Shown here: positions 4,787 through 59,300 of the stretch, piece after piece
Layout: every line of letters begins with the position of its first letter
How positions within the stretch are numbered: position 1 is the first letter of the stretch
DNA from: Beroe forskalii
Taxonomy: Eukaryota > Ctenophora > Nuda > Beroida > Beroidae
Assembly: GCA_011033025.1 (NCBI GenBank)
Contig: WFMF01000014.1
Span: 682,001-746,000, forward strand
Direction of reading: 5' to 3'
DNA length: 64,000 nucleotides
Notes under the pieces: model-generated
Seen by the model: only the letters and a program-made list of their open reading frames with translations
Databases searched by the model: none
What the model was told of the DNA's origin: nothing
Made by a program: the position numbers and the translations under genes

Positions 4787-5137
4787 AAATATGTACAATG
4801 ATAATCAAAAATATGATCATACAATTTAGTGCAATTTTGGGCAGAAATGATCAAAATAAACTTTTAGTTTTAAAAAGATACAATACTAATACTATCCCAG
4901 AATAATTTGAAGCTCAAAGTTTGGTTTAACTGACTTACTGATAAGACCGGCCAATTACCAATGAGAGGAGATAATTCATTTAGATAGCATTTAAGAAAAG
5001 TTAATCGTTGGTTAAATTGTTCATGCTGAAAGTCAGGGTCAACCGATATATTTCACATAAATTTAACATGCAGTATCTTCTGTAATTGTACTTGTCCAGA
5101 GTTCTGAGATTGTTTATTTCCAGAAATAGCCTGCTGA

Positions 5138-13999: not shown

Positions 14000-15289
14000 C
14001 TTGGCAATGAATTAACATCCTGGTTCCCTAATAAGCCGTGGTCATGCTTAATCTAATTTAACGTATTGCCCGGAAATTTGAGAAATCTGATACTTGAATT
14101 TTATCATTATATTTATTAGGGATATTTTACTACTAGCATGCCACTAGCGTTAATAAGGATTATCATGTAATTATGGGATGGGTGGGTGACGCAATCTTTA
14201 TAATCGAACAGAGAAAGCGAAAGGCAAAATTTCATTAATTAAATGTTTGTAGATAAACATTCCGTTGCTCTAACTTGAAATAATACCGAAATTTGAATCT
14301 TGAAATTAAAGTTTAAACCTTCATAATGGAACTATCACGTGTTACTTCAGCATTTTTGGCACCTCCCTGATCCCTCCCTCCCTTCGTCAGGTCAGTATTG
14401 GCGAATCACCTCCCTTCTTCAGTCAGTATTGGCCAATTCCTATCCACGAAAATTCAGATTTTTGGATAAAAATCTCGAAACTTTTGCTGACTTCAGCTAA
14501 GTCCTTCCTCCTAACCTTCCCCTGTCGGCATTTGGAAGCCCCTTCCATCCTGTAGTCGCAAAAATGCGAAATATTAATTTGAGCAGTCACATAATAGGAA
14601 TGTGACTGCTCCCACAAGTTACCTTTTTGTTCAGACTATGGATTCAGTCTCCAATCATATCTTCGTGGCCATGTCTTCCTCTTTCACAGGCTACACCCGT
14701 CGGCCTCATTTCGCTCGTCACAAATCCCTCTGGAACCAAAGCTGACAAACTACGGGTTGATACAACGATCTCCATTCACCATTGACCATTCTACCTATAT
14801 TATGAAAGCATTATATAGATTCATAAAAAGATAACGTATACAGCATGATAACTCAGATATTCATTCCACTCTTTTGAATAATTAATTTTATGTGAAATTT
14901 CATTTGTTCATAGAAGTTAAGGTAATATATTCTCATAAGCCTCTCATGAGCCATAAAATGACAAGCGTAATGCCAATTGTGAATTATACTACATGAATAA
15001 CAGATTATTTGAACCTCAAGACGAAATCAATGAGCAGTTATATTTAATTATGTCATTAAATGGATCAAATTTTAACAAATTTGGCGTTCGAAGCTATCCA
15101 ATTTATCGATTCATAGTCTCATGCGATGTATAGGGTTTGATATTGAGTTCCTCTTGTCTAGGAATTTCAAATAATGAATAAAATTTTTTGCTACAGTATC
15201 CGATCCCATGGCTTAAATCCAGCATTGCAGCAATTTCTGTACACGGGTCACGTTTCATTTCCAAATACTGACACTGTCCACCTACTTAT
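14000..15289. other. Intergenic region between vWA-TSP1 and COQ7 (block 1)
   Basis: AT-rich sequence shared with 35057-36334. The part next to 14000 should hold the promoter of the vWA gene (transcribed leftward) and the part near 15290 the 3' end of COQ7. The short open frames are not conserved between the two blocks, so I call no gene. Confidence 0.4.
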
Positions 15290-16758
15290 TCAGACCCTTT
15301 CAGCTACCTTGATAGCGGTCTGGCACCCCAGTTTGATGACCTTGGACAGGAGTTTGTACTGTGGCGCCAGCTCGGCACCGTGCTCTATTCCGGTGTCATG
15401 ATGCTCCAACTCCTCGTCCCTAAACTTCTTAATGATCTGAGGGGTAGAATTAGAGGGGGTAGAATTAGAGGGGGATTAGAATTAGAGGGGGGGGGGACAA
15501 TAAGGGGGGAGTAGAATAAAAGGGGAAGTGTTTAATTAGAGGGGTGAAGTGGTAGAGGTGAATGTAGGACCAGTTCAGGTTTTCAGAAATGGGTTATTAA
15601 GTTATTATATTTGACATCACGCCAACCTGGAGTAATTCCGTGTAATCCTCCTCCTTGCCCTGCTCGATTATCTCTCTGATCTGGTCGGTATAGTGGGTCA
15701 CTATAGTATCCTCCACCGCTACAGTGCACGCCATAGCTCCCTCCTTACCTGCAAAGTGGAATGTTTTGACATTCAGAAGTCTTTAATAAAGGTACATTTC
15801 TGGGTGACAAATTTTCTGGATAACAAATTTAATTCGACCGTTTCCAAACGGTAACCATGTTAATTTTCATCGCCTTATCGATCAATGGAAGATAAGCTGA
15901 TAAGTTAAGTCTTCCTACCCAGAAGAGCAGTGGATGCGCCAAGCACGAATCCAGCCGTTCTCCAGAAGGGAAGGAGTACGGTGGGTCTCACTCGGTGGTC
16001 TACAATCAACTCGTTCATCTTATCCCTGTGAACCTTCTCTTGGTCCCACATGTGCTGAACGAGGCACGAGTGAGTGAATCAAGGGATGGGACAAAACAGG
16101 GGCACAAAACCAGGTATTGATAGAACAATCCTGCCACTTCGTTAACAATCAAGGCTATGTCAGTAAGAGATTATCAAGTTTTCATCTGGAATAGTAAATT
16201 TTAATATAGATTTCTAAATTAAAACTCCGGCTGTTTACCTTGATGAGCGGTGCCACATTGGAACGGCCCAAGACAGCCATTTGTCCAGCGTATATGTCAT
16301 TGGCCCCCACTTCGCCAGCGTGATCTACTCGCAGAAAACGCTGGATCATCTCCTCCGACCTTTTGTACTTGTCTGAAAGCAGGAATGTGGAAAATAGCCA
16401 GGACCAAATGGATGGATACAAAAATTTGACATGGAAATTGGCAAGAGTAGAAAATTGAATCTATATCACGTAACTGATCGTCAGGCGTTGCCTGTCTTTA
16501 TCCAGTTACTGATTGTCAGGCGTTGCCTGACCCCCCCCAACTTTTTGAAATAATGGGTCTGACGACGTCAGACAAGCAATTGAATCAGTAAGCTGGTACA
16601 GGTGTAAAACATCTCAACTCACCTGAAGGGTACTCCTCTTCATAATCTTCTTCCTCCATTGAATCACTTGCCGCTCCATTACTCGCCACTGTAGATTCAA
16701 ACCTTGTGCAGCAGCGCCTGCAGGCTACGATCCTCCTTACGACTCCTCGAGTTAACAT
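15290..16758 (-). CDS. COQ7: COQ7, 5-demethoxyubiquinone hydroxylase, copy 1 (5 exons)
   Basis: Mitochondrial di-iron hydroxylase that carries out the penultimate step of ubiquinone synthesis, demethoxy-Q to demethyl-Q. Exons are 16758-16623, 16372-16239, 16054-15919, 15748-15627 and 15436-15290. All junctions are GT..AG and in phase, giving 224 residues, close to the usual length of about 217. The start [17 protein letters not shown] looks like a mitochondrial presequence. Di-iron ligand motifs are visible: [18 protein letters not shown] (E-x-x-H), [10 protein letters not shown] and RDEELEHHD (E-x-x-H). The motif [12 protein letters not shown] is diagnostic of the family. The last intron holds a short GTAGAATTAGAGGGG tract that is hugely expanded in copy 2. 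Intron 1 holds a block-1-only repeat insertion. Confidence 0.92.
15437..15560. repeat. Short purine-rich minisatellite in last COQ7 intron
   Basis: About six degenerate units of GTAGAATTAGAGGGG with a run of Gs. It corresponds to the 2.8-kb array at 36484-39260 in block 2. Confidence 0.7.
16479..16573. repeat. Repeat insertion in COQ7 intron 1 (block 1 only)
   Basis: Two copies of the palindrome GTCAGGCGTTGCCTG(AC) and one of GTCTGACGACGTCAGAC, with a C run between them. The matching intron in block 2 (about 40215-40240) lacks the segment. The same words occur near 1636, 1826, 4770, 25169 and 52075. Confidence 0.5.
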
Positions 16759-16925
16759 GGCGGCTATAGATGAGAACGATGTTGAGGAAACTGGTTACTT
16801 AATAAAACCAAGAAGGTCGTATTATTGGCGATTAAATTCGGAATCGCTTGAAAAAATTCGTGCGTGCATGATTTCGTCCCGGCCCAAATCTATCAGATCA
16901 ATGCGCGCGCGTAAGGCGCGCCAAC
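16759..16925. promoter_or_regulatory. Head-to-head intergenic region, COQ7 / small plus-strand frame
   Basis: Only 167 bp separate the COQ7 ATG (minus) from the plus-strand ATG at 16926. The interval contains GCGCGCGTAAGGCGCGCC just before the plus-strand ATG, and this is conserved in block 2 (40417-40577). CG-rich words in an AT-rich setting suggest a shared bidirectional promoter (inference). No TATA box is evident. Confidence 0.4.
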
Positions 16926-17127
16926 ATGTCATTTGAAAGATTAATGCGTTTTCCAGATTTTACGATCCCGCAAATCAAATTTGAGGTGGCACTTCCATTG
17001 TCCCAGACTGTGACATTCGAGAAATCAACTCCCTATGAAGTGTGTAATAGCCCTTACTTCCAAAATATTCTCCTATTTTTCAGTGGGAACGGTGATTGCT
17101 GCAATTTTGCAGTACGTTTGTCTTTGA
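16926..17127 (+). CDS. Possible small membrane protein gene, copy 1
   Basis: ATG 16926 opens a frame starting MSFERLMRFPDFTIPQIKF, followed by VALPLSQTVTFEKSTPYEV. The first 118 bp are nearly identical in block 2. If a 40-bp intron (17044-17083, GTAATA..TTTTCAG) is removed, the frame ends in a hydrophobic stretch, LGTVIAAILQYVCL, and stops after 53 residues. Copy 2 gives the same layout with a 37-bp intron. Read through instead, the frame ends at different places in the two blocks. I do not recognise the family. The near-zero amino-acid change in exon 1 supports coding; such a short intron is a weakness. Confidence 0.35.
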
Positions 17128-17662
17128 GCTGGTATTTCATGGGCTCAAAATTGGTACTTGATTATTGCTGGTCGTATTTCGTGACTGGAACGAAATCCTT
17201 GTTCCTATAATTCATTCCTTACATAGAATAAGGCTACACACCTGGAATAAAATTAACATCACAAAATATCAATTGAAATTTACATTTACAAAAAAACAGA
17301 GCAACATTTGATTACGTTGAGCTTAAACTATACAATAAGTTATGGTTCAGTTCTAAAATTTGATAGTAGCTAAACGAGATTAAGTTCATTGATCTGACTT
17401 ACTCAAAATAAACAAAATTGAAAGTTTTACAACCTTCAATCACAGCCAGATGCCACGATAGTTCATAAATCATAGCATCACAGTTAACAATGATTTGATG
17501 ATAGGCCGGGTCACGACTCACGATAAAAAGCGATTAATTAATGAAATAAAACAGTGACAATAATCACTGCAAAATGAAGAGACATAACTTAAACGCACAT
17601 ACTAAGCTCACTGAAAACTGACTATAACATCTAGGGCGCACCAACACACCAACAAACATGGC

Positions 17663-19866
17663 CTATCTTACTCTGTCCTCGTACTCCTTCATTTCACCTG
17701 CATTATCATAGCTGTTAAACAGCTCCCAGTCCCTTGCAATAGGAGCAGACAACATCTCCTCTGTAATGCCGAAACCATCAGCCAGGGCCAGCGCATCCGG
17801 TGCTATTTCCTTGATCAGTCTGTCGTAGTCGTCCCTGAGTGAGGCAGCCCCACGTCGAGATATCAGGTTATTGGTGAGGAAGAAGGCGATGTTTTCCTGA
17901 AGTACGGTGATCAGGTACAGGTTGTACAGTTTCTGGAGAACTGGCTGTAAGGTGGGGTCAGCAGAGCGGATTTTCTCGTGACAGATGTCGGAGATTAGTT
18001 TCTCCGAGTAAGCTCGGCCTGCGGCTTGAACCAGATCCTGGTGCTGTTCGGACCACATTTCAAACCGCTTAGCTCGGAGCACTGACTTGTCTGCTACTTT
18101 AACCGCCATTTTCTTAGCAACGTTGATAAACAGAAGCTTTTCCCTGAGATCAATGATACGTCGCATGTACTCGATGTCAGAGCCAGATCCCGCTTTTCCC
18201 TTGCGTAACACTACGCCGGGAGTGTAGGCTGGCGCCATTAATCCTAGGAAAGCTGGGAAGTTCTTAGCGGGGTTCATCTTAACCGCCATGTCAGCAAGGT
18301 ATTCCATCACTACCTTCATCATTAGCACACTGTTATCTCCCTCAGCAGTCATGCTGGAATGTGAGCCAGCAATAGCCGGACCGAACCTGTTAGCCGCCAA
18401 GTACCCCTGTCCACCACACCGCTCTCGCGAGATAGTGGCGGCGTTGTTAATGTGCCACCCTGTGATGGCTTTGATAGCGCAGCACATCATCACTATCTCC
18501 CTGTGTGAGACCGTGTAGACATCTCTCCCAGGGACTGAGAACTTGGCGTACATAGCTTGGATCTGCTTGAGGGCGATGTCGAAGATGTAGGTTTTAGCTA
18601 GGAGGGGTATGAGGGCGTGTTGCTGGAGCTGGTAGCCTAGGATGGGGTAGTCACTCTTACCTGCTGGTCCTGCAGTCAGCCGTGTAGCCGAGTACTTGAG
18701 GGCTATTGCCATGCACGCCTTACTCGCTCCTGGGGGGAGGGAGGGATGCTTGGTTATCATCAATTTCCTAAACAATGTCTCGTGATTCGTGAACTGGATG
18801 TTTATTTATCACACGAAATTCGAAAGCTCCTGATTCTAAAAAGCATATTTCGTATTGAATTAAACGTTTGCAACAGACCCTCAACAGTACCAACTGTATG
18901 AAGTTGATTTAAATGTTCGTATAGATCTTCCAGCTGAATGACCGCTAACCTTGTGACATGGACGCAATACAGATCCTTCCAGACAAGAGCTGATCCGCCA
19001 CCTTGAGGAACCTGGCCCTGTTGTTCCCACTGATGTTTGTCACGTACTCGCCACCTTCATGCACCTGCAGAGAGGAGACTGGCTCGTTTAATTATGGAAC
19101 ATGAAATTGTTTTCGTGAAACTAATCGACAATAATAATGCGGATAGGCCTTTTGTAAGTTTATTACGAAGCCTATTATGACTACTGAAGAACATTGAAAT
19201 TTTAAAATTGTAGTAATAGCGGATAGTAGCTTGGCGTACCTCGCTATCTTTGTTGAGTAGGTTCTCCCTTGGTACCCGCACATTATCGAAGGATATCTTG
19301 GCGTTGTCAATACCGTTCAGACCCATCTTGATACCCATGTCATGTATCGTAACACCTGTGGCAACATTCAAGTTAGATATATTGTAGACCATTTCTCAAG
19401 AGACCATCCCAAGAAACTAATATTATGACTCGTGAAATGACACAAATTGGCATTAGCTTTTATCAACACCACATTAATCGATGAGACGTTACTCATATGT
19501 GTACCCATGGATCGATCGTCGATAAAAATGCGTAAAATTTCGACAGAAATTCTATGAAAATTAAATTGCGCGCACTGTAAAATGCGCGTCTTACGCACGA
19601 GCACACTGTATCTTCCTCACCAGGCATGGTGTTTCCCTGCTCATCCCTTATCTTGACCAGCACGCCATGTATTCCATTGTTCTCCTCCCCCGTCATCAGC
19701 TGCGCAAACACCACCATATGGTTAGCGTGCACTGCCCCGTTCGTTATCCAGTACTTCTGGGCCTTTACCGACGGCGTGTGGATCACGAACTCGTCGGTTT
19801 CCGGATCGTAAGTGGCGGTGGTTTCCATCTCCACCGCGTTGTTCCCGTAGCCCAGCTCGGAGAGAC
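17663..19866 (-). pseudogene. Acyl-CoA oxidase-like gene, copy 1, 5'-truncated
   Basis: It holds the last exons of the gene at 41279-47172: 18729-17663, 19064-18950, 19355-19240 and part of exon 2 (19866-19621). Homology to copy 2 ends inside exon 2 at CAGCTCGGAGAGAC (19866 against 46481). Exon 1, with the start codon and targeting sequence, is missing. The remaining exons are open, properly bounded and nearly identical in protein sequence to copy 2 (for example CGGQGYLAANRFG and SSMTAEGDNSVLMMK). Differences from copy 2 in the long last exon are mostly silent, which is odd for a dead gene fragment (see findings). Confidence 0.8.
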
Positions 19867-28500: not shown

Positions 28501-31500
28501 AGCTTAGAAATATTATCATCTTAAATGAGTAATAGTAATATGTATGACTCATACACATTACTATTACTCATTTCAGATGAGAAAATTTCAAAGCTTTTGT
28601 TATCAAAGCTTTTGAATTTTTCAAAGTTTCATGTGGCACGAATTGAGAGGTAACAGTATTCACCTCATGACACAGAATCACCCCGCAATCTTCTTACACG
28701 GCACGAGTGTATCCAGCCATTGCAGCCCTGTGTCTTACAAAATTATCGGATACTTCGAAAATTGTCCAATTTAATGTCTATTAAAACTGCTTTGCTGTAC
28801 CATGGACTGAAACCACTCTGTCGCCAGTCGTGTCCGATGTTTTGCTTATATATGTATTTTTAAATTATCCTGTGTATCCTGAATTTAAAGTTTGTGTAGT
28901 TTAGCTAACAAATGCTTGTGAATTGTAATAATATTTGTGATTAGCAAATCTTAGCCAGATTCAAATGAAACCTTTTGCAATTTGCATCATGTTTGCTACG
29001 TGAAACTGCGTTTCATTGTTGTCTTTCGTTTGGGACTTTGGTCAGTGTTGCATATATTTGCATGTACGAGATTATGTTCTGTATACATGAATATCCTTAT
29101 AGAGAACTTTATTTAAAAGAGCCCAAGGAAATTGTGAGAAGCAAGAGATTGAGAATAAGTTATTTGTTGTTCGGATATGGCCTAGCCTGGCGAGCTTAGT
29201 GGATGTCCTTGCTGAACGGCATGTTAAACAAGGAACTGAAGCTGAGAGGTTCCGTTCAGTCCGAGCAGCTATTGGGTCAAATGTTGGTATACCTACAAAG
29301 TGTGTTTCTCAACACAACCCCAGATTACTATAAGATGCCCCATGTCAGGGTTTTGACAGTTTTTTCATCATTTTATCCCTCAAATTCAATAGGCATTCAT
29401 GATTTGGTGTAAGCATTACATAAATCATCAATTAAGACACTGACACAATCATTTAATAACATCCATGACCCAGCTGTGTCGACAAGCGTGACGTCGCAGT
29501 GTCGTGATATGGACACTACCAACAGAGAAGGCAATGACACTGATAAAGACGCTGATAAAGACACTGATAAAGACACCGGTCAGAGCCTGAGTAACGGATT
29601 CAGCAACTGTACGCCTCTCTTTTGGCTAGCTACCGCAGCGGCATCTGTGGGTTGTGGCTTTCAACATGGCTACGCCCTTGCAATCCTTGGCAACACTCTA
29701 CCCATTATCAAAAACAGGTTCGATGTCTCTGACGTTTACATGAGTGGTATAGTAAGTGGGAATGCCCTGGGAGCTATTCTTGGAGCTGTGTTGGCTGGAT
29801 ATGCTGCTGACAGATTGGGCAGACGGAAAGCACTCTTTCTGAACAGCATCTTCCTCAATGTCGGTTGGAGTTTGATGGCTGGAGCCCCCTCACAACATTT
29901 CTTCTTGGTGGGTAGAGTGGCAGTAGGGTTTGGGGTAGGAGCTGCATCAGTCCTGGGGAACATGTTCCTATCCGAGATATCCCCAGTCTCCATCAGAGGC
30001 TTCATAGGGAACATGTTCACACTTGCCGGATCTGTCGGCTTTTTACTCTCTTTTGCTCTTAGCATACCACAAGTCATCGGCCATAAGGACATCGGCTGGA
30101 GACTGGTCTTTGCTTTTCCCATCCCAATGGTATTTTTTCAGGATGCGGTGCTCATAGCTTGTCCAGAAACGCCTCCTTATCTGGCTAGTATAAAACGGGA
30201 AATTCACGGGACATTGGCATCATTGGCAAAGTATCGTAAGGTTTTATCTGAACAAGAGGTAGAAAATGTTGTATATGGTGAGGCAGATGTAAATCATACA
30301 GGAAATCGTGTTCTGTTTCTCCGGGAAATCTTATCAGACTCCGGACATCGTCTTGCTCTCATAATAGGTCTGATCCTACACAGCTCAAGAGAACTAAGTG
30401 GCATCAGTGCTGTGTACAGCTACACCCTTCAGATATTTGAAGAAGCAAATGTTTCAGATCCAGAACTAGGGACAGTCGGGATTGGACTGATCACTGTATT
30501 CACAGCGGGATTGGTAGCTCTCTTAGCTGACAGGATTGGACGTAGATTCATCATGATATCAGGACTTGTGGTATTAATTGCTGCTCAAATTAGCATCGGA
30601 GTATCCCAAACGTGTTACAGAACTGGCAAATTACTGCTTTGGTCGTGTGGGGGAGAATGGACTGGGCCTGTTGCTTTGGTTTCCGTGTTTGTTTTCACAG
30701 CAGGCTTTGTCTCAAGTCTAGGGTCAATATTGTGGATCTATGTCAATGAAATAACAGCCCCAGAAGCTAGGGGCAAAACCAACCTTGTATGTTTTGCCAT
30801 CCACTGGGGTCTATCCATGGTCGTTCTCTTTTCTTATGATTGGATAGACAAGAGTCTCGCTCCGTACACTTTCTTCCTTTTTGCAGGATTACTTACACTT
30901 TTCTTAATCCTGGTAGTGTTGATGATGCCCGAGACGAGCAACAAACCCGTACATCAGGTGTGTCATGAGCTTAGAGAGCAGTCAAAACGCTGGCCTCCAA
31001 CTGTTGCTTTCCTTAAAAAGTGTAGCACTGTACATCCTTCCAATGATGTTGCTAGCGCAAAGTCACAAGTTTACTCCACTCCCTAATGAGTTACTACTGG
31101 GATTTAGAAGTTACTGGGATTTTGAAATTACTGCAAGTTTCTGATTTAGAAGTTACATAATTTTGCAGAACTTTCTTGCTTAGAAAATATAATAGACCGC
31201 AGTGACAGAATACAGAAGCGCAGAATTTCACTACTCTATTTGGTTGTCACCGTCTCAAGCATTATATTTATGATTCAATATTATGTATTGATTGAAATGC
31301 GATTCAATAACATTTGTCTTTATTAAATTTGTCTTTATTAAGAATTTTTATCCATCCGTGTATTTTTCCCTCCCCAACGCCTTTTTGTTTTACAAAAAGG
31401 CATTGAAGAGGGTTGGCAGAGATCGTGGTAAGGAAGGTGAGAAATCTGAAATAGGATTTGTGTATATGAGGTACAGATTTACAATAGAACTACTGTAATT

Positions 31501-39300: not shown

Positions 39301-40416
39301 TCCTCCTCCTTGCCCTGCTCGATTATCTCTCTGATCTGGTCGGTATAGTGGGTCACTATTGTATCCTCCACCGCTACCGTGCACGCCATAGCTCCCTCCT
39401 TACCTGCAAGGTGGAATGTTATGACCTTGGGGAGCCTTTAAAAAAGGAACATTTCAGAAGGCTTCATTAAAGGTACATTTCTTGATGAAATGCAATTCTA
39501 AACAATCAATGAGCATTTCAGCTTCTTTCAAATAACAAATTTGAGTTGGACGTTTTATAAACGGTCACCATGTTAATTTTCATCTCCCTATCCATTATCC
39601 CTATCCATTATCAAGGAACAATAAGCTAAGTCTTCCTACCCAGAAGAGCAGTAGATGCGCCAAGTACGAATCCAGCCGTCCTCCAGAAGGGAAGGAGTAC
39701 GGTGGGTCTCACTCGGTGGTCTACGATCAACTCGTTCATCTTATCCCTGTGGACTTTCTCTTGGTCCCACATGTGCTGAACGAGGCACGAGGGAGTGAAT
39801 CAAGGGATGGGACAAGGAGGAAAAAACCAGGTTTTGGTAGAACGATCCTGACACTTCATTAAAAAACAAAAAATATGTCAAAGAGAGATGATCAAGTTTT
39901 TATTAACAATCAGCTCAACTCAGGTGAGGAAACTTTAACATAGATTTCTCCATTAAAACACCTCAAAAATGTGAACCAACACCGGCTCTGTACCTTGATG
40001 AGCGGTGCCACATTGGAACGGCCCAGGACAGCCATTTGTCCAGCGTATATGTCATTGGCCCCCACTTCGCCAGCGTGATCTACTCGCAGAAAACGCTGGA
40101 TCATCTCCTCCGACCTTTTGTACTTGTCTGAAAACAGTTGTTGTGGAAAATAGCCAGGACCATTGGGCCAAATGGATGGAATCTTATGATACAAAATAGG
40201 CAAGACTAGAAAATTGTATCTACATCCAGTATAACTGAATAAGTAAGCTAGTAAACGTTTAAAAAACCTCAACTTGTCTGAAGGGTACTCCTCTACGTAA
40301 TCTTCCTCTTCCTCCATTGAATCACTTGCCGCTCCATTACTCTCTACCGTAGATTCAAACCTTGTACAGCAGCGCCTGCAGGCTACGATCCTCCTTACGA
40401 CTCCTCGAGTTAACAT
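36335..40416 (-). CDS. COQ7: COQ7, 5-demethoxyubiquinone hydroxylase, copy 2 (5 exons)
   Basis: Same enzyme as at 15290-16758. Exons are 40416-40278, 40127-39994, 39775-39640, 39403-39282 and 36481-36335 (225 residues if spliced as in copy 1, with one extra Glu in the [10 protein letters not shown] stretch). The di-iron motifs [23 protein letters not shown] and DEELEHHD are all kept. Two oddities. First, the donor after exon 1 reads CAG|ACAAGT instead of CAG|GTGAGT. The 150-bp intron is open and in phase, so unspliced it would add 50 residues ([12 protein letters not shown] to QLFSD). Second, the last intron contains a 2.8-kb minisatellite. Exon differences from copy 1 are mostly silent. Confidence 0.88.
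36484..39260. repeat. Purine-rich minisatellite, 2.8 kb, in last COQ7 intron
   Basis: Irregular units of 15-18 bp, GTAGAATTAGAGGGG(GA), with GGGGG and AAAGGG variants. A larger unit of about 650 bp is itself duplicated: a GGGCTGGGTTGTGCTCGG segment with CTTGTTACCGTACTCTCC recurs at about 37738-37815 and 38389-38462. A non-repetitive 270-bp piece (about 36713-36983) interrupts the array. The strand is nearly all purine, so the COQ7 transcript carries a very long pyrimidine-rich tract. Confidence 0.93.
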
Positions 40417-41278: not shown

Positions 41279-44200
41279 CTATCTGACTCTTGCCTCGTAC
41301 TCCTTCATTTCACCTGCATTATCATAGCTATTAAACAGCTCCCAGTCCCTAGCAATAGGAGCAGACAACATCTCCTCTGTAATGCCGAAACCATCAGCCA
41401 GGGCTAGCGCATCCGGTGCTATTTCCTTGATAAGTCTATCGTAATCGTCCCTGAGTGAGGACGCCCCACGGCGAGATATCAGGTTATTGGTGAGGAAGAA
41501 GGCGATGTTTTCCTGAAGTACGGTGATCAGGTACAAGTTGTACAGTTTCTGGAGAACTGGTTGTAAGGTTGGGTCAGCAGAGCGGATTTTCTCGTGACAG
41601 ATGTCCGAGATAAGTTTCTCCGAGTAAGCTCGGCCTGCGGCTTGAACCAGATCCTGGTGCTGTTCGGACCACATTTCAAACCGTTTAGCTCGGAGCACTG
41701 ACTTGTCCGCCACCTTAACCGCCATTTTCTTAGCCACGTTGATAAACAGAAGCTTTTCCCTGAGATCAATGATACGTCTCATGTACTCGATGTCAGAGCC
41801 AGATCCCGCTTTTCCCTTGCGTAACACAACGCCGGGAGTGTAGGCTGGCGCCATTAATCCTAGGAAAGCTGGGAGGTTCTTAGCGGGGTTCATCTTAACC
41901 GCCATGTCAGCAAGGTATTCCATCACTACCTTCATCATCAGCACACTGTTATCTCCCTCAGCAGTCATGCTGGAATGCGAGCCAGCGATAGCCGGACCGA
42001 ACCTGTTAGCCGCCAAGTACCCCTGTCCACCACACCGCTCTCGCGAGATAGTGGCGGCGTTGTTAATGTGCCACCCTGTGATGGCTTTGATAGCGCAGCA
42101 CATCATCACTATCTCCCTGTGTGAGACCGTGTAGACATCTCGGCCAGGGACTGAGAACTTGGCGTACATAGCTTGGATCTGCTTTAGTGCAATGTCGAAG
42201 ATGTAGGTTTTAGCAAGGAGGGGAATAAGGGCGTGTTGCTGGAGCTGGTAGCCTAGGATGGGGTAGTCACTCTTACCTGCAGGTCCGGCAGTGAGTCGCG
42301 TAGCCGAGTACTTGAGGGCTATTGCCATGCACGCCTTACTCGCTCCTTGTGACATGGAGGGATGCTCGGTTATCATCAATTTCCTAAACCATGTCTCGTG
42401 ATTCGTGAACTGGATGTTTATTTATCACACGAAATTAAGAAACTCCTGATTTTAAAAACATATTTCGTATTGGGGGGCCAACCCCCAAAACCCCCCAAAA
42501 TTAAGCCCCCTATTGGAAATTTGTTATATCCACCAGGGGGTTAAATTAAACCCCCTAAAATTAAACCCCCTATCGACAGCAAAAATTAAGGGGGGGATGA
42601 AGCCCAAAAAAAACCAAAAAAAACCAAAAAAAACCTAGCCCAAGAATCGGAAAAGTAGGGTGGGCCTTGGTTTTTTTGGTTTTTGGTATTTTTGGTTTTT
42701 TTGGTATTTTTGGTTTATTTTGGGTTAGGTTTTTTTCAAAAATTTTGACTTTTTCATGCCAATATGGATTGTTGATGCTATTAATGTGTTGTTATTGATA
42801 TTACTATATTTTCAAACAATATTCGTTAGTTTTATCGATGTTTTGGGTGATTTGTGGTGTTTTATATGACATAATCAGTATATTAAGGCATTGTTTTGGT
42901 GAACTATCAGCAAAGCACTGCTCAAGAGTTGCCGAGGGTCAAGCCAGCATGATCAGCAGGGGGTTAATAGTGGTCAGACTTGAATCACCAGGCCAGGGGG
43001 CCACTCAGTGCTGAAATAAGGACATAGGGGCCCTGCAAACTGCCAAGTGCTAGTGGACCAGGGGGTTTCTTAGGGCTCACTGGTTTGCTCATGGCTGATT
43101 AAGTTCAGACTAGTGTCATCTGAGATCAACAAGGTGTTTTGGAAAAGTCACCATTTCAAAGGATAGCCAAGGGTCGCCAGGGAGACAGTCACTTATGATT
43201 GTCCAATATCAAGGTACTGTAATGGTCAGAAGGAGCCAGGAGTTAGACAAGGTTAAGCAACGGGTCGCCATGCTACTATGGGATCAAAAGGCTTTTGAGG
43301 GAAGAAGTTGAGTGAGGACAATCAAGACATCAGATAATCACTCATTCAGTTGTTATTAAGGGACAGCCAAGGTTCAGCATGAAGTCAGCCAATGGTCATG
43401 AAGGGACCACTATTGCAGTCAGAAGAGGCAAGAAGGTCACTCAGGTTTTAACTTCTTGCTAGGGGTAAGTGAAACGTCAAATAGGTATCAGGAAAAGGTC
43501 AGTCAAATTTTCTCTGGGGTTGGTAAGGGTTTGCCAAGTGCAGTTTCGCCCTTGATTCACCTACCCTCCAAAGCAAAAAGAAATATTTCCTGTGTGCTGG
43601 CGGTATATAATATGCAACTTATGTCCATGCTGGAGTGGAGAGAACCTACATGTCTTTAATGAGCCATGCAGCTAGGACATCCACCACATTCAGCCAGGCA
43701 AGACTCTTGCCTGGCTGAATGTGGTGGATGTCCTAGCTGCATGGCTCATTAAACAAGGAACTGAAAACCGTAGGGCTCCATACAGGGCTAGCGCTGCACC
43801 TTCTGGTAATAATGTTGCGATGTATATGCCTTTAGTTATAATATGCTCAAAATTAAGGGCCAGAAAAGGTTCTGTAAAGTATCCCCAGGGGTTAGGGTCA
43901 CTCAGTCAGGTAGTGTTAGGATATGATTGTCTTGGTTCAGCAGGGAGGAATGTTAGGCCCAAAAAAGGTCTTCCAGGACTCAATAAAGCAGGAGCAATAA
44001 AGCTGAGGATCAGCCTAAGTATGTACATAAAATACAATTGACAAGAAGCTCAGATAAGCTCATGACTCTATAATAAGGACCATGTTCAAACAGCTTTTGA
44101 TAAACATTTATTATTTAGAACAGTAATATGACCCCTTAGGCTAAGCTCGATTGGACCTGACCTGGAAAAAGTACCCACCAGACTCCAGTGTAAGGAGTTA

Positions 44201-47172
44201 AGGACCAATTTCAGAACGATTAGATGAGTGAAAATATTCAATTATATTCAGTAACTTACACAATTATAGGTCGTTTAGGCTACATACCAAGCTCCTGTGG
44301 ATCTACAGTCATATGGTAGACATCATAAAACAATCGAATTTTAACCTAAAAATCGTTTGGAAAGGTGCTAGAAATTAATAAAATGTAACCCAAAAAACCA
44401 AAAAACCTAAAAAAACCAAAAAAAACCTAGCCCAAGAATCGGAAAAGTAGGGTGGGGCTTGGTTTTTTTTGGGCTTCATCCCCCCCAATTAAACCCCCCA
44501 AAATTAAACCCCCTATCGACAGCAAAAATTATTTTAGTATGATTCAAAAAAGCACCAAAATGAAGAAACAAAAAAGGTACCATTTGAAAAAGTTGCCAAA
44601 AATCACGAATAAAAAAGGTACCATTTGAAAAAGATGCTGAAAATCAGAAACAAAAATGGTACCATTTCATAAAAGTTCCAAAAATTATAAACAAAAATGG
44701 TACCAAAAACCGGAAACAAAAATGGAACCAATTCCAAAAATCGCCAAAAATCACGACCAAAAATGGAACCATTTTGAAATGGTGCAAAAAATCAGGAACA
44801 AAAATGGTACCATTTCGAAAGGGTGCAAAAAATCAGAAACAAAATGGTACCATTTGAAAAAGATGCTGAAAATCAGAAACAAAAATGGTACCATTTCGAA
44901 AGGTTGCAAAAAATCAGAAACAAAATGGTACCATTTGAAAAAGATGCTGAAAATCAGAAACAAAAATGGTACCATTTCATAAAAGTTCCAAAAATTATAA
45001 ACAAAAATGGTACCAAAAACCGGAAACAAAATGGTACCATTTCTAAAATTCATAAAAATCACGACCAAAAATGGTACCATTTTGAAATGGTGCAAAAAAT
45101 CAGGAACAAAAATGGTGCCATTTTGAAATGGAGCAAAAAATCAGGAGCAAAAATGGTACCATTTCGAAAGGGTGCAAAAAATCAGAAACAAAATGGTACC
45201 ATTTGAAAAAGATGCTGAAAATCAGAAACAAAAATGGTACCATTTCTAAATATCGCCAAAAATCACGACCAAAAATGGTACCATTTTGAAATGGTGCAAA
45301 AAATCAGGAACAAAAATGGTACCATTTGAGAAAAAAAATTCCCCTTTTTTCACTAAGAATTAAGCCCCCTAAAACCCCCTAAAACCCCCCAAAACCCCCC
45401 AAAATTAAACCCCCTATTGGCGATTTTTTGATATCCACCAAAATTGAGGGGGTTGGCCCCCCCCCCCCCCCGTATTGAATAAAACGTTTGCAACATACCC
45501 TCAACAGTACCTACTGTATGAAGGTGATATTAATGATCATATGACAGCCAGCAGAATGACAGCTAACCTTGTGACATGGACGCGATACAGATCCTTCCAG
45601 ATAAGAGCTGATCTGCCACCTTGAGGAACCTGGCCCTGTTGTTCCCACTGATGTTTGTCACGTACTCGCCACCCTCGTGAACCTGTAGTGGAGAGACTGT
45701 TTAATGGAACTTGAAATTGTTTTCGTGCGCAACGCCGCAACATGCTTTATGAAACAAATCGACAATAATAATGGGGATAGGCCTTTTATTACCTATCTTA
45801 TCGAGACAACTAAAATTGTAGTAATGACGGTTAGAAGCTTGACGTACCTCGCTATCTTTGTTGAGTAGGTTTTCCCTTGGTACCCGCACATTATCGAAAG
45901 ATATCTTGGCGTTGTCAATACCGTTCAAACCCATTTTAATACCCATGTCATGTATCGTAACACCTGTGGCGACATTTAAGTTGGATATATCTCAAGTGTC
46001 CATCCCAAGAACTAAGATTATAACTTGTGAAATAAAATAAATTGGCATTAGGTTTTATCAACACCACATAACTCGATGAGACGTTACTCTTATGTGTACC
46101 CATGGATCGATCGTCGATAAAAATGCGTAAATTTCGATAGAAATTTTATGAAAAATAAATTGCGCGCACTGTAAAATGCGTTTCTTTATCAACCGCTTTG
46201 CCGATCTATGCACGAGCACAGTGTATCTTCCTCACCAGGCATGGTGTTTCCCTGCTCATCCCTTATCTTGACCAGCACGCCATGTATCCCATTATTCTCC
46301 TCCCCCGTCATCAGCTGTGCAAACACCACCATATGGTTAGCGTGCACTGCCCCGTTCGTTATCCAGTACTTCTGGGCCTTTACCGACGGCGTGTGGATCA
46401 CGAACTCGTCGGTTTCCGGATCGTAGGTGGCGGTCGTTTCCATTTCTACGGCGTTGTTACCGTACCCCAGCTCGGAGAGACCGAAGCAGCCGATGTTGGT
46501 GAGACTGTCGATACCGTCCAGAACTTCCTTGTGACGGGCAGTGCCGAGCTTTAGTACAGTGCCTGGGAGGGATGGGGGTGAGGGATAGACAATCAAAACG
46601 TGATTTCAGACAATTTATAGGTTCTGTATTTATTTAACAATAAAAGCTTTGGAACTATAAACAGACTGAACACTGTTGAAATAAAAAAGAAAATAGTGAA
46701 TAAGAACTAAACGTAGCATTTAGGAGTATTACAATTAGGTATAAAGATTTGATTTCGAGTTACCTCCGAACAAATTGAACTGCACTGTCATCTTCGTAGC
46801 CGTAGCACCGTCAACAATTGAGGTGTTTTCATGAGCAGCAAAGATAGCAGTGGGATTAGTTGAGAAGAAGTGAACTGAAATGAACTTCTCATCGCACAAA
46901 GCTTTCAATCTTCTCAATGCCAGTTCTCTTTCGTCTTCCAAGCTTAGATTGTATTGGGGAATGAACGATTTGTCATTACTCAAAAACTGTCGCATTTTCG
47001 TGTGCAATTCTTGATTTTGGTCATCGATAAAATCTGTCATTTTGTTAGGATCAAAGGATGGATTAGGATTCCACGAATCTCTCAACTTGGCAAGATCTGA
47101 GAAGCATCTGATAGCCGATAGTGTGCCACTGTGATTCAGAGCCAAACTTCTCAGTCTTTGGACAAGTGCCAT
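41279..47172 (-). CDS. Acyl-CoA oxidase-like flavoprotein, complete copy (5 exons)
   Basis: FAD-dependent oxidation of acyl-CoA to 2-enoyl-CoA in fatty-acid breakdown. Exons are 47172-46764, 46562-46236, 45963-45848, 45682-45568 and 42345-41279; all phases agree and give 677 residues, the usual length. The start MALVQRLRSLALNHSGTLSA resembles a mitochondrial presequence, and the C-terminus (YEARVR) is not a typical peroxisomal signal, so location is uncertain. Family motifs: QFNLFGGTVLKLGT, FGLSELGYGNN, KYWITNGA, VTIHDMGIKMGLNGIDN with VRVPRENLLN, RERCGGQGYLA and SSMTAEGDNSVL (the last includes the expected catalytic Glu region). It is closest in style to the ACX2/ACOX3 branch (inference). 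Intron 4 holds a 3.0-kb inverted-repeat element. The bases before exon 5 repeat the end of exon 4 (see findings). Confidence 0.82.
43655..43753. repeat. 99-bp perfect palindrome
   Basis: Two 49-base arms pair without a mismatch around a single C at 43704. The left arm contains CATGCAGCTAGGACATCC, the right its exact complement. It overlaps the coding-like stretch beginning VDVLAAWLIKQGTE on the right side. Confidence 0.9.
44565..45335. repeat. GGTACC satellite within the 3-kb element
   Basis: Units of about 45-50 bp built on AAAATGGTACCATTT, alternating with GAAAATCAGAAACAAA-type spacers. Two larger blocks repeat at about 44630-44720 and 44945-45030. Frames of over 100 codons on both strands are artefacts (Lys/Asn/Gln-rich on plus, Phe/Leu-rich on minus). 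Confidence 0.8.
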
Positions 47173-47794: not shown

Positions 47795-49014
47795 CTAAAC
47801 ATCAGGCTTAGCCTCCTCTTCTTCAATTGGCTCCTCCTTTATTTTGACATCTGCTGCACTCTCGCCACCCTTGACATCTCGGCTACCCTCTCTGTCCCTG
47901 TCTCGCTCATCAAACCGCTCCTTAACATCAGCATCTCTGTCCTTGTCGTCTTCCCTATCCCTTCTCTGTCCCTCTCACCGTTCCTATCTCCTCTGTCTCT
48001 ATCCCTGTCACGCCGGTCATCACGATCTCGTCTGTCTCTCTTCCTGTCTCTGTCACGGTCGTCATCCCGTCGTTCACGCTTCCTATCCCCATCTCTGTCC
48101 CTTCTACGATCTGAATCATCCCGATCCCGTCTTCTGTCATCATCCCTGCCCCTTTCTTCCCTTCTGTCAGAGGAGCGAGGCATTCTTCTGTCCTCCTTCC
48201 TGTCTTCATCTCTTACTGACCGGTCACGGTCTGAAGATCTTGCTCTTTCAGATTTATCTCGAGATCGTGATCGTTCTTTAGATCGAGGCCTCTCACTCTC
48301 ATCCCTCGTGTCAATGTTCAGTAGCCTCTCACGCATCCTTTGGGCTCGTGCCAACTTGTCCTGGTATTGGCGTGGGTCCACCCGTCCTGAGTGGGTTACA
48401 TTCATTTCAGGTGCTCCAATACGTGTCCCGCCAAGACCACCTCCGAATCGCCGTGGCTTCCAGTTCTTCACAGTTCTTCCCCGTTCAATGTCAACAACAA
48501 CCCGTTTACCATCGATTTTTCTGCCATCTCCATACTTGAAAGCAGCCCTCATTCCCTTTTCAGTTTCATATTCAATGAAAGCATAACCCCGGGGTTTACC
48601 CGTCCTAACATCCCTTACCATGTGGATTTTACGTATGTATCCAAACTCTTCGAATTCTCGCTGCAATTTGTCCTCTCTGGTATCATAGTTGATCCTAGAA
48701 ACAAAAACTGTCTTAAAAGCATCACCAGACGCATTAACATCATTATGCGGATCCCAAGATTGCATCTTTTGCTCGATCAGATTTTTCTGGAGGTCCTCTT
48801 TTTCTTTTCGTTTAGCTTCACGTCTTTCTGCCCGAGTGGGTACCTTTTGAGGAGTGGGTGTATCGGCAGGATCTTCAAACAAAGCCAGATAAGAACCAAT
48901 TCCAGTTAGAGTGCAAAGTTCATTAGAATGTTTAGGCTGAGGTGGGGGTAGATATGGCAAAGGATCCCTTGGTGCAAACAATGCCAGCAGATTCCCTGGC
49001 AAGAATTGAGTCAT
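47795..49014 (-). CDS. SNRNP70: U1 snRNP 70-kDa protein, intronless
   Basis: Core U1 snRNP protein that binds stem-loop I of U1 snRNA and helps define 5' splice sites in the nucleus. The start is the ATG at 49014 ([20 protein letters not shown], the family's usual N-terminus); an upstream in-frame ATG at 49104 adds an unrelated leader. Then come a basic helix ([13 protein letters not shown], 61-73) and an RRM with RNP2 VFVSRI (103-108) and RNP1 RGYAFIEY (142-149). A glycine/arginine linker and a long RD/RE/RS-rich tail follow. The reading frame as written stops at 47839 after an untypical end. In the -1 neighbour frame the tail continues [17 protein letters not shown], then [11 protein letters not shown], and stops at 47795, which looks like the true terminus. 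A one-base loss near 47960-48000 is therefore likely (sequence error or mutation). Confidence 0.88.
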
Positions 49015-50245
49015 TGCTACCTCAGATGTTAAACTGTTAGAATATAATCTTAGTATGTATATTATAATGCGTGTTGCTACTATGTAGGGCAATACTGTTT
49101 TCAAGAAACAAAATTATTTTTTCATGGTGTTATAACTAGTCAAAAAATATTGAGAAAACTTCTGCATCCACCCTGAGGGGTGGGAAGGCCAAGCCCTTGG
49201 CCTTTTTAGCAGAAAATAGTAAACTTTCGAATTTTTTCAAAATTCCTCTGCTATCAAATTGCTAAATTGCTCATGATGAATGAAAATGGGGGGGTCCACT
49301 GGCCAACAGCCACTGGCAGGGAAATTACTGGAGTGCTTTTGAGGAAAATCTATTCGCAAGAGGGCTCCTTAATTCTGATGAACAAGCTTGTCACAGAGTC
49401 CTGTAGGGTATAACAGGACAGTAGACACTGGTGGGTGATACTGCCTCTCCTTCTGCAAAACTTGAAGTGCCAAGAAATCACTTACCCCAACATTGGAGCT
49501 TAAGTTGGCTTCCCAGAACTCTGTGAACTCTAAGGCCCTTACAGCCAGTCAAATCCATCTCTGCTCCACCACTAATTTACACCCTTCCACCATGACTATC
49601 ATCACCTCTTTCAACACCAGTGCTTCACCTCCTGCCTCCCTTCTTCCATCCACCTTGTTTATTTGTTTCTATTACAGGCCTCTTTGCCCCTATTGAGCCC
49701 AGAGGTGTCTGCATAGACTTTGGTTGATCAATCAAATTCACTATAAGTGCAAAAAGTGGTCAATTGCAAGTGGTAATGCAGGTTCTGCTATGTGTTATCA
49801 TAACTTTGAAAACACTTGCAAGCATATTCACAATACCTTCAAATCCACTCTCTTTGAGGGAGGGGGTGGCACTGACCTGAACTTACGATAAAAATGGATT
49901 GGAATAGAGACAATTGGGACAAATCATATCATACAACTGCCTAGATCTCTAGAGAGACTATCTGGACTGGGTGCAATGGCCTGAGTAGGTATGTTCCAAC
50001 TTAGTGACCAGTAACTTTTTTATACCAACCCAAAACTTCTTTTACTAGTACAACTAACCAACTTGAAACTAACAGTCTTATTTCCATAGCAACATTTATG
50101 GCACATGAATTCTTCAAACAATTACCAAGTCATTGGCAAATATCATCAATATCAGAAATCAGCTGGTTATGTCATTTTTTGTAGGATGTATTAGTCAGTG
50201 ATGATGCCACACCAATTTAAAGTTAAGATTCCTAATCATTTGAAT

Positions 50246-53324: not shown

Positions 53325-56300
53325 ATGGGAGATAGTTGGGATGAAACTAGTTTTGATGTGAGTGAAGCAGATGCCAAAAGTCTTGCAAAGCATGTAGATT
53401 CAGATGGATTGGATGATGAAATTTTTGGTGGACTGGGTAAGAAACCTGCAGGAAATCAGTCTTTACTTAAGGCAATGCAACAGTCCACTGGAAAAGGAAT
53501 ATTTGATGATGATGACAATAAACCAAATATGAGGAAACCAGAGATTACTATAAAACAGCCTGAGATTAGGAAACCTCAGAATCAGCCATTCACCAAAAAT
53601 GTAACAAAGCCCTCTAAGAATGATGAAGATGATATATTAGCTGATTTGCTTGGAGATTCTGACTTATCTGACCTATCACAACAAAAAACAAAGTCAGTGC
53701 CTAGTGTTCCTTCAAATAAACAAACTGGGGGTGTCTTCAAGAAAACCCCTGATCAGTCAACCCAAAGACAGGGACCATCTCAAATGAGTGGAAAATCAAA
53801 AATTAAGAATGACTTATTTGATAATGACGATGATAGTGATATACTTGGGATGTTGGATGTCAAGAAAGACTCAAAGGAAGTGTCTGATAATAGACATCAA
53901 ACTCCACCAAGACTAGAAAAGTCATCCAAACCAACATTTGATGATATGATCAGCCGGACTTCCCTCATGAAAAGTAATGAAGAAATAACTCCAAGAAAGT
54001 TAACCTCACCAACTGATGATTTTGCAAGTCCTGCAGGTTTCACACCAAGGTAATTTTGTTATTATGTCCAGCATCCATTATAACATTTTTATAAACTTTT
54101 CCTCAGGGGGCATGGACAGGTTTTAAGAAAGGGGTCAGCAAGTTACATTCAAAACCTGTTTGATTTCGTATTTTGCTTGGCTCCAAGTTCTGTCAACCAT
54201 TAGAAATCTTTCGCAATCTCTGTCCAAAAAGGGGGAGGCAGTTGCCTCTGTTTTCTTCTCCCCTGGCTATGCACCTGCTATTTCTACTGCCATGCCACCC
54301 ACATCAGGAACTAAATATGTTCTATTCCATCTCTCTCTGGCCTCGACTGCCCCGCCAAGTACAACGGACAGACCTACCGCCCCCTCCTCGACAGAATGAA
54401 AGAACACGAGAGATGCTACAGACTGAATAACGCAGTTGACGACACTACAGACAGAGTGAAATCTGCTCCAGCTCATCACTCCCTCCCCACCGGACACAAC
54501 ATTGCCTGGAACGACATCCACATCCTCAAGTCCCTCCCCTCCCGCTCCCACCTAGACCTGACAGAACAGGCTGCCATAGCCACTAGGAAACCATCTATGA
54601 ACAGAACAGACAGCGCTCCAAAGTGCAGCACCCTGTGGAACCCCATCCTCCCCAAGATTTCCTCAACCTTCAGACCTACTGACTCAGGAATCCTCTTCCC
54701 TAACTACTGACACCACTTTTCTTGTTTATGTTATTAGTGATATTGTATTTGATTATCCCGTCAACTGATCACTCACACCCACCACCCATCCCCCACTCCC
54801 TGACACCACTCATTTCATTTATAAGCATCCTCTCACCTTCCATCTTCAGCTGACGACGATAATCATCACATGATTTTCAGCTCCTGATTTAAAGTTTATC
54901 GTATCATTTAAAACGTTTTAACTTGCTCTCTAAAGTTGTACCCTGATACGTCACACCCTCTCCCCATGGATCAGTCTACAAACGATGCAGTATCCAGTTC
55001 TACACCTACATCCCCTCAGCATCAACACCTTCGCCTCCCTCAACCCTCTACCCCTCCTTCAACGACAGCCTCCTCTCCCTCTTCGGACCTACTGCCCCCT
55101 CCTCTCAAGACAACCTCCTACCTCATGCAACGACTAGCCACCTACTCCTGCCACATATCCTTCCTCAAAGCCTGCAGGGACCACTCCTTCATCCCCAAAG
55201 GACTCCGACTTACCTCCCCTATCGCCTCAACCCGCGCCACAGACATCATGACCAGAGCCTCTACCTCCCTCCTGACAGAACGTCTCAACCACTATAGACA
55301 ACGCTTCGCCCACAGCAAGCAGAACTACGACGACAACCTCCGATCCCTACACCTCCTCCTCTCCCCCGAATACTACCAGAAACTCCTCCACCTACACGTG
55401 AAGAAGTCTTGCTACACCCACAAGAAGCAGCTTCTCAAACACAAGAAGAAGTTCGACGCCCTCCTCGCCGAACGACACTCCCTTCCTCTCCCCCCTACGC
55501 AGCTCTCCCGACGTTCGACATCCACACACCCACCTTTCGAGGACCTCTCTTCACCACCAAACCTATCACCAAGGACAACACCACGAAGACCGTCATCAAC
55601 CTCTCCGACCATCCCTCACCACGGCTCAGACTGAAGTCCTCTCCCTCGGGCTGAAGTTCGTTCCTACCCCCACCACCGACCCTACCCCCGACTTGGCTCC
55701 TCTCATCCAGAACGTCACCAAACAACTCGGAGACGGAATGGAATCCTCGGTCACACACCAGGTTACCTCTGTATTGTCTGACTATGACCCACAACGTGAC
55801 ACTACCCGTGACAATTTGACTAAACAACAACGTTCTGCTTTTGACATCACTCAAGAAACTTAAGTCTGACCTTCGCTTTCTTCCTGCTGACAAAGGCAAC
55901 GCCACCGTTGTCTTGACCAACCAGCAATACATTGACAAGGTTAACGACCACTTATCTTCAGGAAGCTACACTCTTCTCTCGTCCGACCCTACAGCGTCCA
56001 TCACCAACAAACTTCACAACGTCCTCAAGAAGCTGCTCAAGGAGAAGAAGATCGACGCCTCCCTCTTCAAACAGATGCGGAACCTCCACCCCAGATGGCC
56101 TCAGCTCTACGGTCAACCGAAGATCCACAAACCTGGAGCCCCCATCCGTCCTGTGGTCTCCTTCTACAACACCCCTCTCGAGGCTCTCCACAAAACCCTC
56201 TCACATCCTGAAGCCCCTGACGCAGAACCACCTCCGCCTCAAGGACTCCCTCGACTTCCGATCCAGATTCCTAGCATCCCTCAACCCTTCCTACCCCTAC

Positions 56301-59300
56301 CACTCCTCCCTCGACGTCCAGTCCCTCTACACCTCCTGTGACATGCGCCTAGCAATGAAGTCAGCCATCTCCTCCTTCGAGCAGAACCCCTCCCTCCTAC
56401 CTTCCAACCTCTCCTCCTCTACCATCAGGACTCTCATCTCCTTCTGCCTTGACAACTCCTACCTCGAGTTCAACGGCTCCTTCTACTCGCAGGATGTTGG
56501 TGGACCCATGGGCTCCCCCTCACGGTGCAGCTAGCAGAAATCCGGGTAGCAGAAGTCGAAGACCTCGCCCTCTCCACCTCTCCTGACCCTCCCAACTCCT
56601 ACTGCCACTTCGTCGACGACGGCCTTGGCTCCTTCAGGGACAGACAACACGCAGACTCCTTCCTCAACTTCATCAACTCCCTGACGGACGACCTCACCTT
56701 CACCCTGGAACACCCCTCTCCCGACGGAACCATCCCCTTCCTTGACGTCCTCATCCATCCCGACAAGTCCACATCGGTCTACAGGAAACCCACCCACACC
56801 AACCTCTACACCCGCTTCGACTCCTGCACAACGACTTCCTCCAAGGACAGTGTCATCAGATCCCTCACCAGACGGGCCCACAACCTCTGCTCTCCTCAAC
56901 ACCTCGACGCGGAACTTCAGACAGTACGACACACCCTCCTACAGAACGGATTCCCTCCCTCCCGCATATCCTCCATCATGACAGAGGTCTCCCAGAAGTT
57001 CAACAATCCTCCACCCACCAATCTCGCTGCCTTCAACAGAGACATCAAACCACGACCCTCCTTGAAGACCTTCCTCCCCTTCCATCCCTCCCTCTCCAAA
57101 CCCATCAAGAAGATCCTCAACGACCACGACATCGACGTCACCTTCTCCTCCAACACCTCCCTCCGGAACCTCCTCACCAAGACAAAGACTACTCCTCCCT
57201 CCTCCCAGACTCCCAACACCATCTACGAGATCAGCTGCCTCGACTGCCCGCCAAGTACAACGGACAGACCTACCGCCCCTCCTCGACAGAATGAAAGAAC
57301 ACGAGAGATGCTACAGACTGAATAACGCAGTTGACGACACTACAGACAGAGTGAAATCTGCTCCAGCTCATCACTCCTCACCACCGGACACAACATTGCC
57401 TGGAACGACATCCACATCCTCAAGTCCCTCCCTCCCGCTCCCACCTAGACCTGACAGAACAGGCTGCCATAGCCACTAGGAAACCATCTATGAACAGAAC
57501 AGACAGCGCTCCAAAGTGCAGCACCCTGTAACCCCATCCTCCCTCAACCTTCAGACCTACTGACTCAGGAATCCTCTTCCCAACTACTGACACCACTTTT
57601 CTTGTTTATGTTATTAGTGATATTGTATTTGATTATCCCGTCAACTGATCACTCACACCCACCACCCATCCCCCACTCCCTGACACCACTCATTTCATTT
57701 ATAAGCATCCTCTCACCTTCCATCTTCAGCTGACGACGATAATCACATGATTTTCGAAAGCTCCTGATTTAAAGTTTATCGTATCATTTAAACGTTTTAA
57801 CTTGCTCTCTAAATCTCTCTGGCCTCTTCCAGCACAGAACCATGCTTAGTGCTACTTTTCTATAATCTTTATTTCTTATCTGACACTGATATAATCTCAT
57901 CTAAAACTTAATTCTGATTGATTGTTTTGTCACCACTTGCTGTTGATGATATGATATAAGTCAACTGAAAATTTGCAGCAGTGGAGGTAGAGGGAGACGA
58001 GGTTTAAGCTCCGGATTACAGACGCCAAAGACTGGTTCTGGACTACAACCTGATGATACTTTTGACTTGTTCATGAAAGATGATGACAATGAAATCTATG
58101 CTCCAACTCCAGCAAAGTCTGCAAATGTTGAAGATATGTTCAGGTTAGCTACCCATGTAGTTCAAAATTAGCTTAATTTAGTTCAAATAAGCTTAAATTT
58201 ATTTTTTCTGGACTCAGACTTGAAATTTCTGTGCTCTGAAATTTCTGTGCTCATTTCATCTGTTTCAGAGTGGATCAAGTGAGAACACCTCAATCACAGA
58301 GCCGCACACAAACTCCTGTCAACACAGGAGCTCGTGGTGGACAGCAAAACATGACTTCTACTCCTGCCAAACCTTCCAGTATTGAGGATATGTTCAGGTA
58401 AGAGCTACTTAGTGACTTAAGAATTTCATGGGCTAATTTTTGTATCACCTATGTGTTTCATGTTGTTTGTGTTGATAATCCATGAAATCTAAACTCTTGA
58501 TCACTTGTAAACATCCCCTTACAGAGTTGACCAGCTGAAGTCCCCACCATCTGTAAGTCGAGCACAGACACCAGTGAGCACTCCACCAGTAGCTCCTCGG
58601 CCTGGAGGTGGTGCAGGAACTGCTGCTCCTAGTCCTGGCCCCCAAACAAGGGAGATGCGACCTCACACTCATGATGGAATTCCTGGTATCTGACATCTTG
58701 ACATGTTTATATTTCATCTTAATACTTTAACTCTTTGATACTGTGCAATTTCTAGCAAGAACGCAATATTTGCCTTTGGATAAGAAATAATTAGTATCGT
58801 CCACGTCAGACGTTTTTTGACCCTCGTATTTCGCCAGGTCCTGCTGCTGGGGAGACACCAGTTCAAAGCAGGCCGCCATCTGCTGGACGACGAGCCAAGA
58901 CGGCCCTTCCCAACAGGTTTTATTTCCCTATCATTCAGCTATTATTACTATGCAAAGTTCAGGAATAGGTTACCTCTTTGGTAGTGTTTCAAGCAAGAGT
59001 GGTATTAACCTATCATATCGCAGAGGTGGCGGAGGGACAGCCCCTGGGACCCCACAGAGAAGGAACTCTGATGCAGCTGACAGTCTCTTTGCTGACGAGG
59101 ACATCCCGAACAAGTTCCTGCAGGCAGACGGCACTGCAGCTGCCTTACCTTGGGATAAGCCGGAGTCTATGCCCGGTACACCTCCTGTGAGAGGGGGAGA
59201 TGACATGTTGCCGTGGGAGAAGCAGTCAGTACCTGGCACCCCGCCAACAAATGGAGGAGAAGGTCCCACTCTGCCGTGGGATAACAAGCCACAGCCAGCC

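Follow-up and report, generated by a model that had tools for sequence, protein, structure and literature searches.

The window, by which we mean the whole 64,000-nucleotide stretch of Beroe forskalii DNA analysed, contains a segmental duplication of about 20 kb, with one block at positions 3720–19866 (block 1) and the other at 24107–46481 (block 2), interrupted by minisatellites. Through this duplication four genes occur twice: an acyl-CoA oxidase (ACOX), COQ7, a sugar transporter, and one whose match to VWA is weak. All coordinates for the window are window positions, and the ACOX and COQ7 sites lie throughout on its minus strand. The two blocks differ by 871 substitutions in 13,541 aligned columns (6.4%). 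Runs of at least three adjacent substitutions between them number 39, and seven of these have conserved flanks, the COQ7 donor described below among them. The sugar transporter of block 2 is intact, as a single 557-aa frame (29413–31086), while the block 1 copy (10505–12124) is divided into separate broken frames, with several 1–2 base indels relative to block 2; it is either a pseudogene or a copy bearing uncorrected long-read errors. U1-70K lies within one extended open frame at 47839–49113 (Pfam matches to U1snRNP70_N and RRM_1) and seems to have no intron over that interval; copies of TTCAAGTATGGA close to it were set aside. Long open frames at 54315–57479 sit within inverted and direct repeats and have a retroelement-like appearance; no Pfam match was found for the three frames tested there.

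The oxidase was identified by Pfam matches to ACOX_C_alpha1 and ACOX in the exon 5 frame and to Acyl-CoA_dh_M in an upstream exon. Exon 5 of block 2, stop codon included, occupies 41279–42345. The intron before it, intron 4, ends at 42346–42358 with the 13 bases TCCATGTCACAAG, directly before GAGCGAG at the exon start, and the same 13 bases end exon 4 of that block at 45568–45580, where the donor GTTAGC follows. This identity had been claimed by the first-pass annotation and holds base for base. Block 1 exon 4 ends with the identical 13 bases (18950–18962), and the block 1 acceptor, over an equal length at 18730–18742, is the polypyrimidine tract TCCCTCCCCCCAG, the normal site that the annotation had described. 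With both strands searched, TCCATGTCACAAG has only three occurrences in the window. The block 1 tract TCCCTCCCCCCAG agrees with the exon 4 end at 8 of 13 positions, and the remaining five are exactly those changed in block 2, each to the exon 4 base. These five changes sit inside 8 bases; their number had been counted correctly before, but their span had been put at ten.

Chance had been called a very unlikely source of this match, and the figures agree. At 6.4% divergence, divided by three for each named base, simple arithmetic gives about 5e-9 for the five named changes, and the identity run of 13 at this acceptor exceeds the maximum of 7 in 1840 mispaired junctions. There are 80 overlapping windows with at least five substitutions in 8 ungapped columns; compared only where flanks were free of gaps, flanks are best conserved at the ACOX junction, with 23 of 24 columns, followed by a window in a G-rich repeat with 20 of 24. 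Elsewhere in the 216 Mb genome the oxidase queries matched contig C252 only, among the matches listed, such counts being lower bounds. The C252 paralogue has no intron at the exon 4/5 position and reads straight through. A 226-base query with the ACOX intron of block 1 matched the two blocks only, among the best candidates scored. A 20-base match to the spliced oxidase junction, with one mismatch, on another contig (G000:C442:88432-88451) was judged to be chance, the oxidase similarity there being a 9-residue stretch only.

COQ7 of block 2 presents the mirror case, at a donor. Its intron 1 begins with ACAAGT (40272–40277) and has no GT; the same six bases begin the next exon (40122–40127). The block 1 donor (16617–16622) is the canonical GTGAGT. 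Read across the exon boundary, block 1 has CCCTTCAG followed by GTGAGTTGAG and block 2 has CCCTTCAG followed by ACAAGTTGAG, and the next exon starts with ACAAGTACAAAAGG. Where block 1 has GTG, block 2 has ACA, and what overlies the intron is the beginning of the following exon, not the end of the preceding one as in the ACOX case. The COQ7 site came to light when direct repeats that connect open frames were scanned for, with 169 candidates; those listed were mostly repeats, COQ7 and CCT6 being among those shown. For the joined COQ7 peptide, the match to a solved COQ7 is confined to the part downstream of the junction and so has no bearing on the junction itself.

Other conserved multi-exon genes were located by family search, and small stretches around them were read. 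We tabulated 48 junctions from 13 copies of 10 genes, taking those for which both ends could be placed by reading frame and omitting first and last junctions of several genes. ACOX was given, COQ7 came from the repeat scan, and the CCT3 pair was chosen because it is duplicated; the other seven genes were picked after CCT3 had been seen, and before their own junctions had. Genes on contigs C2 and C440 and other family matches, mitochondrial carriers included, are left out of the sample. Donors are GT in 42 of the 48 junctions and AC, AT, AT, CT, CT and GA in the remaining six; all 48 acceptors are AG. The run of identity between the intron start and the next-exon start is at least 6 bases in seven junctions (6, 6, 6, 6, 10, 16, 16), and every one of the six non-GT donors is among those seven, each matching the next exon over at least 6 bases. 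The corresponding run between the intron end and the previous-exon end is at least 8 bases in two junctions (13 and 15). Pairing introns with exons of other genes gave 1840 mispaired controls, none of which reached either threshold (maxima 5 at donors and 7 at acceptors); these controls reuse the same junctions and are non-independent, as are the two CCT3 copies. Nine of the 48 junctions lie above every control. As the sample is small, hand-chosen and rich in housekeeping genes, this proportion does not stand for the whole genome. The overlays are 6–16 bases long, and the total direct repeat in the nine affected introns is 11 (four times), 6, 14, 15, 18 and 19 bases.

CCT3 and CCT6 were identified as the gamma and zeta subunits of the T-complex by alignment to 9unw_H and 3iyg_Z, respectively. 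On contig C558, intron 1 of CCT3 has no GT donor and carries 10 next-exon bases over it (one copy read), and intron 2 lacks its GT donor under 16 next-exon bases in both copies. Two introns of CCT6 (contig C602) are without GT, each with 6 next-exon bases. In PSMA6 (contig C179) the 15 bases before one acceptor equal the end of the preceding exon, the same pattern as in ACOX. The remaining tabulated junctions of ACOX, COQ7, CCT3, CCT6 and PSMA6, and all of those in CCT2, PSMB5, PSMB2, PSMA1 and PSMB7, are GT-AG. Several are borderline: CCT6 intron 7 has a donor run of 6 with GT retained, and is included in the nine; PSMA1 introns 1 and 2 have donor runs of 5 and 4; and CCT2 intron 3 has an acceptor run of 6. 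The genes that we take to be PSMA1, PSMA6, PSMB2, PSMB5, PSMB7 and CCT2 were named from their peptides, the family matches supporting only proteasome or Cpn60_TCP1. In one proteasome gene (stretch L042, 461–560) the acceptor together with the first bases of an exon recurs about four times in tandem, immediately upstream, with a period of about 25 bases. Proteasome, chaperonin and mitochondrial-carrier genes were also met with a near-full domain in one open frame on contigs C691, C198, C174, C277, C470 and others; such single-frame matches suggest intronless copies.

When CCT3 and CCT6 are joined at the repeat, their alignments with 9unw_H and 3iyg_Z show no gap at any of the four affected junctions; each has one single-residue gap, away from these. 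Within about 60 bases of the six non-GT junctions there are 49 in-frame, stop-free GT/GC-AG alternatives (16, 13, 3, 3, 6 and 8 per junction), none of which gives the same length or the same peptide. The nearest, a GTGATC donor for CCT3 intron 1, drops one residue and may be a real alternative there. None of the canonical alternatives listed preserves the peptide; as written, CCT3 and CCT6 would not splice canonically to their conserved products. No second CCT6 copy was found by search with the CCT6 peptide, matches of 77–97% identity being only on C602 and all other rows at or below 40%. The two CCT3 copies form an inverted pair about 39 kb apart on C558, at 175–178 kb (L038) and 214–217 kb (L039). 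They differ at 35 of 1429 aligned exon sites and 156 of 1244 aligned intron sites; RNA reads correcting both copies, or ordinary selection on exons, would each give this contrast, which decides nothing.

Two unsupervised scans, over 284 kb and 290 kb, looked for k-mers that recur downstream of donor-like sites; they gave no clear excess and were dominated by tandem repeats. In the 290 kb scan GT-anchored rates fell within the wide range of control dinucleotides; in the 284 kb scan GGT[AG] and, at 13 bases, GTTAG rose above controls, an excess that may come from repeats, though without proof.

COX1 on contig C1134 contains four in-frame TGA codons, and its arginines and isoleucines, compared at conserved COX1 residues, agree better with translation table 4 than with table 5. 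GC content over the first 3 kb of that contig is 20.2%; the figure that PMC6991124 gives for the whole Beroe forskalii mitogenome is 17.3%. According to the same source, the data for individual Bf201606 comprise nanopore R9.4 reads and two Illumina libraries, with about 122 and 42 million pairs; RNA-seq came from another individual, in two libraries with about 175 million pairs apiece. The mitochondrial contig was polished there with nanopore and Illumina shotgun DNA reads, and a complete nuclear genome was stated to be absent (PMC6991124). No nuclear assembly protocol was found in the available portions of the literature searched, which included PMC11184263 and PMC6991124.

The overlays are exact, they recur, and for two of them an unaltered paralogue is at hand. 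We are confident that they are errors of the assembled consensus introduced by spliced-RNA reads, and not part of the biology of the animal. Spliced-RNA reads, or cDNA carried over among the DNA reads (for example by index cross-talk), would have been placed unspliced on the draft genome. The short overhang of a read past an exon junction would then lie on intron, and a consensus caller would write each of its bases into the intron. Upstream of an exon, this would leave the end of the previous exon before the acceptor, as in block 2 ACOX and in PSMA6; downstream, it would cover the donor with the first bases of the next exon, as in block 2 COQ7, CCT3 and CCT6. Polishing with RNA reads predicts donor mirror cases, short overlays and recurrence, and all three were found, which supports the first of the two causes named in the first-pass annotation; the second, conversion from cDNA, fits badly. 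It is general knowledge that an unspliced read end has a limited reach, and overlays of at most 16 bases are consistent with overhangs too short for splicing. CCT and proteasome genes are in general well expressed. There is no N in 264 kb of contigs, and this together with the 1–2 base indels in the block 1 transporter would fit a long-read draft whose correction was incomplete, although the transporter would look alike if it were a pseudogene. That an animal should damage its own chaperonin genes by copies of 6–16 bases is far less likely than that a consensus caller should do so. The most likely reading is a problem of sequence quality at several genes, not biology.

The polishing step and the aligner are inferred from the form of the overlays. 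The default scores of bwa mem would clip the ACOX and COQ7 overhangs, which implies that reads were aligned end to end or reassembled locally. Some features sit awkwardly with polishing by RNA reads. Donor overlays outnumber acceptor overlays by seven to two, and unspliced mapping predicts no such imbalance; just 9 of 48 junctions were hit; and four of the nine repeats are exactly 11 bases, as a fixed target-site duplication would also give. With DNA short-read libraries as big as about 122 and 42 million pairs, RNA reads would not obviously be the ones to prevail at these sites. Nor did the two unsupervised scans bring out any clear surplus of these repeats near donor-like sites.

The alternatives fare worse. 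In the living lineage, reverse-transcribed mRNA might have invaded the gene and served to repair a few bases at the edge of the intron, and the template that the overlays require is indeed a spliced junction; the three proteasome-family matches that are nearly full-domain in one open frame also hint at past retroposition. But the tracts are at most 16 bases and end just inside introns that stay in place, whereas cDNA conversion is known mainly for the removal of whole introns. Donors have moreover been lost in CCT3, with intron 2 affected in both copies, and at two introns of CCT6, a gene for which the search gave no second copy. We therefore regard such micro-conversion as improbable, and if anything slightly less credit is due to the fuller proposal that reverse-transcribed spliced mRNA templates splice-site repair in tracts of 6–16 bases while ctenophore splicing tolerates non-GT donors.

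If the intron was gained by an insertion that duplicated its target site, the direct repeat would be original and the block 1 polypyrimidine tract would have evolved later. A 13-base direct repeat does flank ACOX intron 4, the C252 paralogue is without an intron there, and a total repeat of exactly 11 bases in four of the nine affected introns is what such a process might leave. Nevertheless the totals elsewhere are 6, 14, 15, 18 and 19, so that repeat length is not constant, and the ACOX intron query matched the two blocks only, among the best candidates. Block 1 would also need five changes in 8 bases, all to C, to arrive at its acceptor tract. At COQ7, block 1 has GTGAGT where block 2 has the repeat, and target-site duplication fails to account for this mirror-image donor with its unaltered block 1 site. 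We give the idea little credence.

Less credible again are real non-canonical introns, bounded by short direct repeats and removed by an unusual splicing route. The exact repeat at each of the six donors without GT (6/48) is what they would offer, but acceptors are AG in 48 of 48 cases and donors GT in 42, block 1 COQ7 is canonical, and the non-GT donors AC, AT, AT, CT, CT and GA share nothing evident except the copying of the next exon. Chance substitution can be dismissed: at 6.4% divergence some clusters are expected, and 39 runs of three or more were seen, seven with conserved flanks including the COQ7 donor, but recurrence at nine junctions beyond all 1840 controls already refutes it.

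The overlays are most probably an artefact of assembly, present at a noticeable fraction of the junctions sampled. In studies that use this assembly for the introns, gene models or splice-site evolution of ctenophores, some junctions would appear non-canonical, repeat-flanked or retained; the scale in our small, housekeeping-weighted sample is 9 of 48 junctions affected and 6 of 48 without a GT donor. The signature, a run of exon-intron identity above mispaired controls, provides an easy screen for other assemblies corrected with RNA reads.

Among known systems, the polishing errors of long-read assemblies resemble what we describe in that local base replacements follow the correction reads, with 1–2 base indels in a nearby coding copy; they differ in that what is copied here, onto the edge of the intron, is a spliced junction. 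In the titles and abstract openings on such polishing, no description of a spliced-junction overlay was found. Intron gain by double-strand break repair or introner insertion produces flanking direct repeats, and short direct repeats at both intron ends are likewise found here; unlike in that process, the paralogue still has the canonical site, and the repeats differ in length and in the side on which they lie. Gene conversion or intron loss mediated by cDNA shares with the present case its spliced template, whereas here the introns are kept, the tracts are at most 16 bases, and donors are removed.
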